From Acetobacterium sp. KB-1 (GTDB taxonomy: Bacteria > Bacillota > Clostridia > Eubacteriales > Eubacteriaceae), in contig NZ_CP030040.1 in the NCBI RefSeq assembly GCF_003260995.1, forward strand, positions 1,052,578-1,116,577: a stretch of DNA of 64,000 nt. Direction: 5' to 3'. The notes beneath the pieces are model-generated. The model did not search any database and had not been told where the DNA came from. It worked only from the letters and a program-made list of their open reading frames with translations. Made by a program: the position numbers and the translations under genes. Every line of letters begins with the position of its first letter. Position 1 is the first letter of the stretch. Shown piece by piece: positions 27,238-30,101 of the stretch.

Positions 27238-27649
27238 CGCCACTCCTTTTTTTAGAACGAGAATGGATCATTTGATTCCGTCTAGATTCGATTGCTCCGA
27301 TTTATCAAACAAAACTCCCAGAATTTTTCTTGCTAACATCGCTATTACTTTTCATTGTAACAGATGTGAATCATAATATGAAGGGTTCAAGAAAAATATA
27401 AAAATTCCAGATGTTTAAGGCACTAAATTTTGTCGTAACCGCACCAAATACTAACAATAAAATGATAAAACCCTCCACCTGTTAAGCTTAAGAAAGTCAA
27501 TTTTGTTTGACAAACTTGATTTTCTTTGCTATTATGATACATATTATCAAACAAACATTATGTGAAGTATATGTATTGAGTAATTCTATTTGTGAGCTTA
27601 TTTACGTGTCTAAGTAAATGTGGAAATAAGTAAGCCGATTATTAATCCA
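27238..27649. other. Intergenic region before the isolated transcription unit
   Basis: AT-rich, with no frame that has a ribosome site. The consensus promoter at 27507-27535 lies at its right end. From 27594 GCTTATTTAC can pair with stretches of the following 40 bases (GTAAAT and AAATAAG...TAAGC), giving a structured 5' part to the predicted RNA. Confidence 0.45.
27507..27535 (+). promoter_or_regulatory. Consensus sigma-A promoter of the isolated unit
   Basis: A perfect TTGACA, 17 bases, then TATTAT. The predicted RNA would start near 27542 and end at the terminator at 27830, about 290 bases in all. Confidence 0.8.
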
Positions 27650-27778
27650 ATGAAATTTACATTGAAAAACATCCTGGATAGAACTGGGGCTTGTATAGGA
27701 TCAACATGGTCATATACTATACTATTCTGCCTGATATTTATTGGGTATTATGAATGGTGTAAGGTGAGTTATTTTTAG
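27650..27778 (+). CDS. Candidate 42-residue membrane peptide
   Basis: A short frame starting MKFTLKNILDRTGACIGSTW and ending in TAG has a basic N-terminus and one hydrophobic stretch (about residues 20-35, rich in aromatic residues), as in small membrane peptides. It lies wholly within the promoter-terminator unit 27507-27830. No good ribosome site is seen (only AAGTAAG about 20 bases upstream), so translation is uncertain and the RNA itself may be the product. Confidence 0.35.
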   Translation: MKFTLKNILDRTGACIGSTWSYTILFCLIFIGYYEWCKVSYF

Positions 27779-27786
27779 CGAAACCT

Positions 27787-27830
27787 ATGCACTCTAACTC
27801 TGTAAACGCAGAGTTAGAGTGCATTTTTTT
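27787..27830 (+). terminator. Very strong rho-independent terminator
   Basis: A perfect 16-base stem (ATGCACTCTAACTCTG with its complement at 27809-27824) with a 6-base loop and seven T. It closes the isolated unit and separates it from kamA, which starts 98 bases later. Confidence 0.93.
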
Positions 27831-27927
27831 ATATTTTATTCATAGCGATAAAAAGATGCGCCTCTATTTCACACCCCCCCATTCACCCAAATATAGTTAA
27901 TAATACATAATCTGAAAGGAACAAAAC

Positions 27928-29256
27928 ATGCAAGAAGCAATTAAATTAACACAGGAACATCTAAATACCAGCCAATCTTCCGATTACTTAATGGATAAAT
28001 GGACCGACTGGCGCTGGCAACTAAAAAATACGATTCGAAAAGTTGAAACATTTGAAAAAATTATGGGAATTAAATTTTCTGATGAAAAGAAAAAAGAGAT
28101 TAATGAAACCATTGATAAATTTCCAATGGCGATTACACCTTACTACTTATCATTAATCGACGAAGATGATTTTGAAACGGATCCGGTTTTCAAACAGAGT
28201 TTTCCAAGTATTGACGAATTGATCATCTCATCCATTGATATGGAAGATCCGCTCCATGAGGACAAGGATAGTCCTATCTGTGGAATTACCCATCGATATC
28301 CGGACCGGGTCCTTTTTCACGTCAGTAATGTGTGCGCGATGTATTGCCGTCATTGTACCCGAAAAAGAAAAGTTGGCGATGTGGACTCCGTTCCTTCTGA
28401 TGAAATGATTGCCGCGGGTATCGACTATATTAAGAATACACCCACCGTACGGGACGTTCTTCTTTCCGGTGGAGATCCATTTCTTTTGTCCGACGAAAAG
28501 CTAGACCATATTCTCGGACTTGTTGCTGCAATTCCCCATGTTGAAGTAATTCGTATTGGCACACGAACACCGGTCGTTCTTCCCTATCGGATCACAGACA
28601 AGCTCATAAAAGTCCTCAGTAAATATGATAATCTCTGGATCAACACTCACTACAATCATCCCCGGGAAATTACCAAAACCTCAATTAATGCGCTAAAAAA
28701 ACTAACTGGTGCGGGAATTCCTTTAGGCAACCAATCAGTGTTATTAAAAGACGTCAATGACTGCCCGCAAATCATGAAAAAACTGGTTCATAAATTAGTA
28801 GCAAACCGCGTGCGCCCGTACTATTTATATCAATGTGATTTATCTGAAGGGCTTGAACATTTTAGAACCAATGTTGGTAAAGGCATTGAAATAATGGAGA
28901 GTTTAAGAGGTCATACCAGTGGCTTCGCCATTCCAACTTATGTTATTGATGCCCCTGGTGGCGGTGGTAAAATCCCGGTGATGCCTAACTACCTCATTTC
29001 CTGGTCGACTAACAAGGTTATCTTAAGAAATTATGAAGGCGTCATCACCACATATCAGATGCCAGACACCTATGAACACACAGCCTGTGATTTAAACTGT
29101 ACGAATTGCAAGCTCCAATTAAAACTAAATAACGAGGAAAGTGATCGCAAACCGATCGGCATTTCCAAATTGCTTTGCGATTATGAAGAAACCATCACAC
29201 TGGTTCCTGAAAACCTTGAACGCGACCAAAGAAATCAAAGTGATGAGGCAATATAA
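27928..29256 (+). CDS. kamA: Lysine 2,3-aminomutase
   Basis: This 442-residue radical-SAM, PLP enzyme converts L-lysine to L-beta-lysine. CAMYCRHC (Cys136, 140 and 143) binds the 4Fe-4S cluster, RKRKVGD follows as in characterised enzymes, GGDPFLLSD binds SAM, and Lys348 in PGGGGKIPV holds PLP. The C-terminal cysteines ([12 protein letters not shown]) match the zinc site of the clostridial enzyme. GAAAGGAAC precedes the start. Its stop overlaps the ablB start, so its product most probably feeds N-acetyl-beta-lysine (compatible-solute) synthesis rather than lysine fermentation; in this setting the gene is often named ablA. Confidence 0.95.
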
Positions 29257-30101
29257 TGACTGACATCATTGAACCCTATGGTCATAGTCTGATTCAGCAC
29301 GGAAAAAACAGCAATCGGATTTACTTAATGAAATGTGATGCTGCCGAGGCTGACTCGCTTATCACACACATGAACCAACTGGCACATGATAAAAATTACT
29401 CAAAAATAGTTGCCAAGATTCCAGAATCCCAAGATCCCGTTTTTAAAGCCGATGGTTACAAAGAAGAAGCCGCGATACCCGGCTTTTACCGGGGTCAGGA
29501 AACATGTAAATTATTGAGCAAGTACCTTTGTCCTAAAAGAGAAAACCTAACTAATGACATGGAAATCAAGCAAATTCTTGACGATGCAATAAAAAAGCGT
29601 GCCGAAGCTGCAACCCAAGCCCTGCCAGAAGAATTCAAAATTAGAGAATTAGGGCCATCAGATATACCCGCACTCGCACAAATTTATGGCACAGTTTTTA
29701 AAAGCTATCCCTTTCCTATTTTTGATGCAGACTATCTTCTCGAAACCATGTCTGATCACGTTACCTACTTTGGTGTATTTCACAATAATCATCTAGTCGC
29801 CGTCTCTTCCAGCGAAACTGATTTGGACAATTTAAATTCTGAGATGACCGATTTTGCAGTATTACCAGCGTATCGGGGTCATAAGCTGGCCCTCCATCTC
29901 CTTAATGAAATGGAAAAATATATGATTAACGCAGGATTTCGACTGCTCTATACCATTGCCAGAGCATCGTCTTATGGAATGAATAGAACCTTTGCCCGAG
30001 CAAATTATCAATATGGTGGCACCCTTAATAATAATACCCAGATTTCAGGATCAATCGAATCCATGAATATCTGGTATAAAGACATCGGCGCAGCTAAATA
30101 A
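29256..30101 (+). CDS. ablB: Beta-lysine N6-acetyltransferase
   Basis: This 281-residue GNAT enzyme acetylates the side-chain amine of beta-lysine to give N-epsilon-acetyl-beta-lysine, an osmolyte known from methanogens and also encoded in some bacteria. The N-terminal part (1-125) is the AblB-specific domain; the GNAT domain follows with DFAVLPAYRGHKLALHLL binding acetyl-CoA. Start and kamA stop share a base (TAATG), indicating translational coupling. A hairpin overlaps its end. Confidence 0.93.
   Translation: MTDIIEPYGHSLIQHGKNSNRIYLMKCDAAEADSLITHMNQLAHDKNYSKIVAKIPESQDPVFKADGYKEEAAIPGFYRGQETCKLLSKYLCPKRENLTNDMEIKQILDDAIKKRAEAATQALPEEFKIRELGPSDIPALAQIYGTVFKSYPFPIFDADYLLETMSDHVTYFGVFHNNHLVAVSSSETDLDNLNSEMTDFAVLPAYRGHKLALHLLNEMEKYMINAGFRLLYTIARASSYGMNRTFARANYQYGGTLNNNTQISGSIESMNIWYKDIGAAK

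Follow-up and report, generated by a model that had tools for sequence, protein, structure and literature searches.

The window analysed here is a stretch of 64,000 nucleotides from Acetobacterium sp. KB-1, whose genome is a single contig of 3,988,268 bases. All its features described below lie on the forward strand. A sigma-A type promoter, TTGACA-17-TATTAT, was found by sequence scan at 27507..27535; TG precedes its second hexamer, forming an extended -10. An earlier note on this DNA called the promoter perfect, and both hexamers are indeed present at the stated spacing, but they match the consensus at 11 of 12 positions. The intrinsic terminator described in the same note is there as well (27787..27831), with a stem at 27787-27824 of 17 pairs, a 4-base loop and a T run. 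Judged from the positions of promoter and terminator, a short leader transcript of about 290 nt would be expected at 27543..27831, and inspection of open reading frames agrees that no long gene lies in between. Directly downstream, again as noted earlier, are kamA (ablA, lysine 2,3-aminomutase, 27928..29256; TIGR03820, 746.9 bits), which is the presumed regulated gene, and ablB (beta-lysine N-acetyltransferase, 29256..30101; TIGR03827, 336 bits), both HMM matches above cut-off. Another promoter-like sequence, TTCACA-18-TATAGT, is located at 27868-27897 between the terminator and kamA, so kamA could have a second, local start in the window.

The 27507 promoter has the top score among 28 promoter-like sites in 8 kb, where 25.3 are expected at the lower threshold of the scan. 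It is conservation, not the promoter scan, that lifts the observation above chance: the promoter recurs upstream of the relatives' elements, and promoter, leader, terminator and downstream gene recur jointly.

The conserved structured element extends over 27563..27828 (covariance model R2 match, 207 bits). It begins with conserved TGAAGTA (27563..27569), placed by alignment opposite GAAAAA (27664-27669) across the base of helix P1. The two strands of P1, 27571..27577 and 27656..27662, are identified by covariation, and five of their seven pairs form in the window. Conserved AGTA (27579..27582, from the alignment) faces GAAA (27652-27655); such AGTA/GAA oppositions, including AGUA/GAA at the P1 base, presumably resemble loop-E (S-turn) motifs. 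Further inside follow P1b (27583..27585 with 27649-27651, from the covariation scan), the weakly supported P2 (27586..27592 with 27635-27640, register uncertain, 75.4% of cells paired in alignment A1) and P3 (27597..27610 with 27617-27630). P3 is the GCTTATTTAC pairing that had already been noticed in the 5' part, now supported by covariation. Downstream of P1 lies the conserved core TAGAACTGGGGC (27679..27690, covariation and alignment), of which 27679-27683 would be the 5' arm of an antiterminator. Three hairpins succeed it: P4 at 27693..27717 (27693-27702 with 27708-27717, 100% of cells paired in A1), P5 at 27718..27761 (27718-27725 with 27754-27761) and P6 at 27762..27786 (27762-27765 with 27783-27786 and 27769-27771 with 27776-27778, around a GA-rich internal loop), the latter two from covariation. 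The terminator closes the element, and stem scan and strand conservation place conserved CACTCTAACTCT on its 5' strand (27790-27801). Near-invariant unpaired blocks are found between the helices, namely TGAAGTA, AGTA, YGAG, GTAAR, RAAA, GAAAAAY and RGARCTGGGG, to which the 5' strand of the terminator has to be added.

This fold is based on comparison of related elements. Alignment A1 comprises 30 of 31 listed elements (L067 was excluded as divergent), aligned without structure; the helices P1, P2, P3, P4, P5, P6a/P6b and terminator P7, 62 pairs altogether, were written onto it by hand. Its source list omits the near-identical copies L005, L010 and L044-L046 and the incomplete L019/L051/L073 and L068. 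In A1, 92.8% of cells are paired vs 34-50% when the partners are slid, and changes on both sides occur in 37 of the 62 pairs vs 21.0 in shuffles; 0 of 500 shuffles reach any of five measures. Covariance model R1 was refined once into R2, which aligned 60 matches; unlike A1, this alignment is fitted to the structure. Its cells are paired in 92.5%, both sides change in 53 of 62 pairs, and double-change cells number 850, vs 282 in shuffled and 145-183 in slid controls. Two further alignments were restricted as follows: A3 excludes L004, L011, L077, L081 and L101, and for A4, 59 sources were chosen, a selection that omits most of the near-identical copies from Acetobacterium. Helix P1b, located between P1 and P2, emerged from a mutual-information scan and is 86.3% paired vs 24-46% slid. 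The leader RNA of the window folds 5.1 standard deviations better than dinucleotide shuffles, the terminator being included in the fold. A possible pseudoknot between YGAGY and GGGYYU was considered and set aside, the columns concerned showing little variation. The covariation analysis that the earlier note had called for thus finds an RNA structure kept with compensatory changes, and by this comparative measure the element is a conserved structured RNA domain of the sort that riboswitches possess.

The same part of the leader had been proposed to encode a 42-residue membrane peptide, either alone or within a dual-function RNA. The ATG frame does exist at 27650..27778, within a 52-aa GTG frame, and an evident ribosome site is absent, just as had been remarked. 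In the window, the frame is open and includes a hydrophobic stretch. When 61 genomes were searched in six frames with the peptide, eight relatives of the same genus gave matches at E < 1e-5, and four of these are free of stops, although two of the four (G002 and G008) span only 30 and 29 of the 42 residues. The other four (G007, G009, G010, G017) contain stop codons, and at the element's second copy, elsewhere in the same genome as the window, the search found no match. Moreover, the frame coincides in position with P4 to P6, helices whose variation is compensatory. Conservation in close relatives, which the earlier note had set as its own test, is thus found for the RNA structure and not for the peptide; the conserved reading frame that a small membrane protein should have is missing. 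We judge that the frame is not a gene and give the peptide reading hardly any credit.

The terminator seems to have a competitor. In a mutual-information scan (54 rows, left after L142, L201, L205, L206, L209 and duplicates were dropped), columns 225/430, one in the core and one in the terminator, rank 21st of all pairs, unprompted. They belong to a putative alternative helix, in which KRGAR of the core RGARCUGGGG pairs with YUCUM at the end of the terminator 5' strand. In the window, the 3' arm of this antiterminator would be 27798..27802, assigned by covariation; four of its five pairs with 27679-27683 form, and the pairing and the terminator are mutually exclusive. Among the top 60 column pairs of the scan, 33 are model pairs and the others include non-pairing columns; because many ranked pairs of columns do not base-pair, relatedness adds background to this list. 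We also scanned 23,117 five-pair blocks (55 rows, without L142, L205, L206, L209 and duplicates) with an analyst-chosen filter of at least 88% paired and at least 30 double-change cells. Twenty blocks pass, 19 of them on or extending model helices, and the remaining one, 224-228/427-440, shares four of the five pairs of the alternative helix. In its own register, 225-229/426-430, the helix has 40 double-change cells and is 83.6% paired, which is under the 88% line, so only the form shifted by one passes. Considered alone in 59 sequences, it is 83.5% paired vs 37-60% slid and has 42 double-change cells vs 20.2 shuffled; most cells of its inner pair 229/426 are unpaired (36 of 57), and its number of pair types does not rise above shuffles (279 of 500). 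L179 retains the helix through simultaneous changes on both sides in several pairs.

Conservation of the terminator strands points in a similar direction. The 5' strand has a mean entropy of 0.32 bits vs 0.61 bits for the 3' strand and is more conserved at 11 of 12 positions (the same 55 rows), whereas in the same comparison the strands of P1, P3, P4, P5 and P6a are nearly symmetric. This asymmetry suggests a further function for the terminator's 5' strand. Antiterminator pairing seems to account for that function partly, and participation in the sensing core would account for it fully. Another antiterminator, between the 5' AGTA and the terminator, had been suggested by folding of truncated leaders; we dropped it because compensations are few (at most one case by eye) and because the internal loop opposite GAAA accounts for AGTA better. 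As predicted from covariation, then, the element carries an expression platform with mutually exclusive structures, which is a further property of riboswitches.

The genes that follow the element are of a limited number of kinds. First downstream genes of 80 elements, classed by comparison with reference proteins, are KamA (36), amino-acid-type solute-binding protein (30), ProV (4), BCCT (3), a fusion of PLP enzyme and GNAT acetyltransferase (2), AblB (2), OpuCA (1), HPRT (1) and ammonium transporter (1). When four weak elements (37-57 bits) are set aside, namely L142 (KamA), L205 (HPRT), L206 (ammonium transporter) and L209 (PLP-GNAT fusion), each of the 76 stronger ones is followed, on its own strand, by a gene for synthesis or uptake: beta-lysine synthesis in 37 cases, an amino-acid-type ABC transporter in 30, betaine or osmoprotectant transporters in eight and the PLP-enzyme/acetyltransferase fusion in one. 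These 76 include two partial elements, L101 (without terminator) and L102 (at a contig end), and they fall into 60 similarity clusters by shared 8-mers, with 20 elements coming from the genus of the window, so the counts do not represent independent events. HMM searches with representatives agree with the classes: ProV subfamily (465.5 and 471.8 bits), OpuCA-like (408.1 bits) accompanied by an OsmF-like binding protein (141.9 bits, below the family cut-off), BCCT (460.3 and 572.1 bits), AblA and AblB of a distant family (615.4 and 236.7 bits), PALP plus acetyltransferase domains in the fusion, and SBP_bac_3 in the amino-acid-type transporters. The element is thus a 5' leader of functionally related genes, as riboswitches are, with 30 of these genes being amino-acid-type transporters of unassigned substrate. 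The hint of the earlier note at the downstream osmolyte genes is borne out by this context, and its regulatory structured RNA is supported. An N-acetyl-beta-lysine operon is described in one study as rising in an acetate-adapted acetogen (PMC9768041).

The arrangement around the element is equally constant. Of 79 elements, 65 have a promoter-like site (at least 10 of 12 matches) in the 90 nt before them, vs 4% of mononucleotide shuffles of these stretches, and a T run marks the 3' end in 74 of 79. In 33 of the 76 stronger elements, no more than 60 nt separate the element from the start codon; in three, the distance to the first gene is about 400 nt. One of the 76 has a promoter-like match (10/12) between terminator and gene, and this is the element of the window (gaps shorter than about 28 nt cannot hold one). 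As the only recurring promoter sits upstream of the terminator, the layout is that of attenuation. What had been taken for an isolated transcription unit is therefore better described as a 5' leader, with its terminator standing between the conserved promoter and the gene. One could still imagine a trans-acting small RNA that merely neighbours kamA, for the strong promoter and the terminator should yield an abundant transcript of about 290 nt. Such an RNA would hardly be expected to stand in front of a same-strand gene for synthesis or uptake in 76 of 76 cases, and a pairing exclusive with the terminator speaks against it too; we consider it very improbable. That kamA-ablB transcription is controlled by a cis-acting leader RNA via attenuation is, in our opinion, quite probable.

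Several individual loci deserve mention. In Alkalibacter mobilis (L051/L073, element L101), the 5' parts and the core are kept, and the terminator-bearing 3' part is replaced by repeat-like sequence before kamA. In G010 (genome of 4,044,777 bases; L006:1780-2260), the kamA between element and ablB seems to be cut to about 14 first and 11 last codons, recognised by weak tblastn matches (E 0.012 and 0.15), and ablB remains. A threonine-synthase-like PLP enzyme fused to a GNAT acetyltransferase stands behind the RNA at L140:3727-5103 and L209:5680-7047 (the L209 element being weak); by analogy with KamA plus AblB, this fusion may make an acetylated amino-acid solute. Behind the weak element of L142, an octopine-dehydrogenase-type gene comes after the KamA-like gene (L142:220-1413), possibly another solute pathway.

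As to distribution, a DNA search covering 61 genomes returned long matches from 14 of the 19 that belong to the genus, and partial ones from other genera of the order; the second copy in the window's own genome is at G000:C1:1240234-1240503. The core pattern (GAACTGGGGYNTNNNNARGATC..GGTCNT), searched in 84,980 species genomes, occurs in 31 stretches, among them Acetobacterium (A. paludosum, wieringae, dehalogenans, bakii), Alkalibaculum, Alkalibacter, Anaerosacchariphilus, Mobilitalea, Anaeromicropila and Anaerotalea. Its 0 matches in viral contigs led us to reject a viral or mobile origin. Model R1 found the element in 15 of 391 genomes at class level and in 14 of 19 at genus level, and model R2 in 32 of 398 genomes of the phylum (three of the matches weak, 25-57 bits), representing 24 of 267 genera, in 19 of 67 genomes of the order, in 4 of 146 from the family to which G099 belongs (one weak, 37 bits) and in 7 of 10 from the class of G443. 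The genome sets searched (genus, family, order, class, phylum) overlap. Matches to the reverse strand across the terminator (about 25-40 bits) were ignored, and so were four weak ones (23-29 bits) at other places in G008 and G010. Within the genus, ablB is above cut-off in 11 of 19 genomes, and all 11 have the element before kamA-ablB. Three genomes (G001, G004, G012) possess the RNA and have no ablB above cut-off; there, its only copy precedes an ABC carrier. The five genomes of the genus without the RNA are also without ablB above cut-off. One contig filed under a Paludibacter MAG (L066, JAQUWU010000104.1) has kamA and an element that clusters with Acetobacterium copies; it is probably mis-binned.

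On the element, none of the Rfam families attains its gathering score, be it in the window, in ten loci of relatives or in 36 wider loci. Permissive scans (E <=10 for the element of the window, E <=1 in 17 loci) find no riboswitch family on it; the matches touching it are to hairpin models of miRNA type and to a small number of others, none of which attains its gathering score. The same scans do detect tRNAs, T-boxes and purine and azaaromatic riboswitch elsewhere in the loci. The covariance models of the c-di-AMP riboswitch (RF00379), the Na+-I riboswitch (RF03071) and the T-box (RF00230) have no match on the element, RF03071 has none in the whole genome of the window, and the lysine riboswitch, whose accession we take to be RF00168, has none on the element in the all-family Rfam scans. 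T-box and lysine (L-box) leaders are long, attenuating, provided with terminators and placed before amino-acid genes. They differ in being absent among the Rfam matches of the element, even though T-boxes turn up in the very same loci. The literature searched, with most subscription papers and preprints outside its coverage, contained no published description of this RNA.

Among known classes, two come near in function. The Na+-I riboswitch (DUF1646 motif) is, according to the accessible part of its description, a leader before ablA and eam tied to osmotic stress, and it occurs in tandem with c-di-AMP riboswitches before a Dehalobacter lysine 2,3-aminomutase (PMC9337991). It is alike in having an intrinsic terminator and in its position before ablA (PMC9337991, same part), but its model has 55 positions vs 251 in the new element. 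In the genus, RF03071 is detected in 6 of 19 genomes at E <=0.001 (four above cut-off), and five of the six are exactly the RNA-less ones. Its copies lie before rnfC in five genomes (L210, L212-L215) and before nhaA in one (L211), as read from the translations; one gene of each kind was verified by HMM (rnfC, TIGR01945, 530.9 bits; nhaA, TIGR00773, 407.6 bits). In spite of this nearly complementary presence, we do not claim that Na+-I replaces the new RNA in these five genomes, since the downstream genes, rnfC and nhaA, differ. The c-di-AMP riboswitch (ydaO/yuaA, RF00379) is alike in controlling osmolyte and related genes through a terminator platform, as stated in the accessible part of PMC9337991, but the family is present in 0 of 19 genomes of the genus.

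Three published candidates resemble the element in position and were compared by their descriptions only, as far as these are accessible. The proX motif (SRC-29-1) precedes a glycine betaine/proline betaine transporter gene, but it has 17 representatives, mostly from Spiribacter, and control is translational (PMC8632094). The trpB and opuB motifs precede amino-acid-type or Opu-type ABC transporters, and trpB is likewise found in Firmicutes with terminator and antiterminator (PMC11109978). They differ in that trpB has at least two hairpins and an antiterminator in the right shoulder of P1, and opuB belongs mostly to Enterobacteriaceae and has a Shine-Dalgarno sequence in P1; in the accessible part of PMC11109978, neither is described with kamA, BCCT or ProV. 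The kind of element we report is thus a known one (attenuating leader, candidate riboswitch), and its family and regulon appear to be new, being set apart from trpB, opuB and proX by descriptions.

The recurring order in many Bacillota is promoter, multi-helix RNA of about 250 nt, intrinsic terminator and a gene for osmolyte synthesis or solute uptake. Comparative evidence of this kind argues that the element is a real, widespread and uncatalogued cis-regulatory RNA. It is best read as a new transcription-attenuation leader, and probably as a riboswitch class of the osmolyte regulon. We suggest the following course of events. When osmotic stress is lacking, the nascent RNA would end at the terminator by default. 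Under stress, a cellular signal would stabilise the core that brings GARCUGGGG and CACUCUAACUCU together; the stabilised core would block the terminator, and polymerase would read into kamA-ablB. The signal might be one shared by the whole regulon, an ion or a small molecule, and not a single solute, because the solutes served by the regulon are unrelated. Alkali cations, c-di-AMP and a common solute are candidates, none of which we rate above an even chance.

There are two important aspects in which this model could be altered. Firstly, the sign may be reversed: a ligand such as c-di-AMP or the accumulated solute would bind the core and free the terminator strand, turning the genes off when osmotic needs are met. 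The core GARCUGGGG itself is the antiterminator arm, so its ligand-bound form could release the terminator. Furthermore, a diadenylate cyclase domain is present in 19 of 19 genomes of the genus and the known c-di-AMP riboswitch in 0 of 19, which leaves the niche of a c-di-AMP sensor open there; the known class is an OFF switch that can precede lysine 2,3-aminomutase (PMC9337991, accessible part). Against this stands the near invariance of terminator-strand columns 419 and 422-424, which are unpaired in the alternative helix and suit a role in the bound core better. The reversed sign is a tentative alternative that we regard as rather unlikely. As the 5' strand of the terminator is conserved beyond the need of either pairing, as if it were part of the sensing core, we lean slightly towards ON polarity.

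Secondly, the leader might be bound by a protein, an antiterminator or terminator factor, in place of a small ligand. Structured leaders with terminators are protein targets too, and ligand binding is putative here. The size of the element, its many near-invariant unpaired bases and its spread over 24 of 267 genera nevertheless resemble riboswitch aptamers, and a recurrent regulator is absent among the downstream genes listed (a statement on the downstream side only). We find a protein-bound leader improbable, more so than the reversed sign. Direct binding of the signal by the RNA, i.e. a riboswitch, is the likeliest form of the attenuating leader, and we consider it probable. In its broadest version, to which we give about an even chance, a single large riboswitch class across Bacillota senses a general osmotic-stress signal (alkali cation, c-di-AMP or common solute) and antiterminates a whole osmolyte regulon, consisting of N-acetyl-beta-lysine synthesis, betaine uptake of BCCT, ProU/OpuA and OpuC type, an amino-acid-type ABC carrier and the PLP-enzyme/acetyltransferase fusion. 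The latter, unstudied so far, may in that case make a new solute.

Taken together, the leader probably decides the reading of protective-solute genes under salt stress in many Bacillota. To our knowledge, the way from osmotic signal to transcription of solute genes is only partly known, and few RNA sensors (for c-di-AMP and Na+) have been linked to it. A single structured leader in front of several unrelated routes of osmoprotection presents a directly testable candidate for an RNA osmosensor. It would also be a marker that places uncharacterised transporters and enzymes in the osmolyte regulon, and it would offer a control element for use in Acetobacterium and other acetogens, organisms investigated with a view to gas fermentation.
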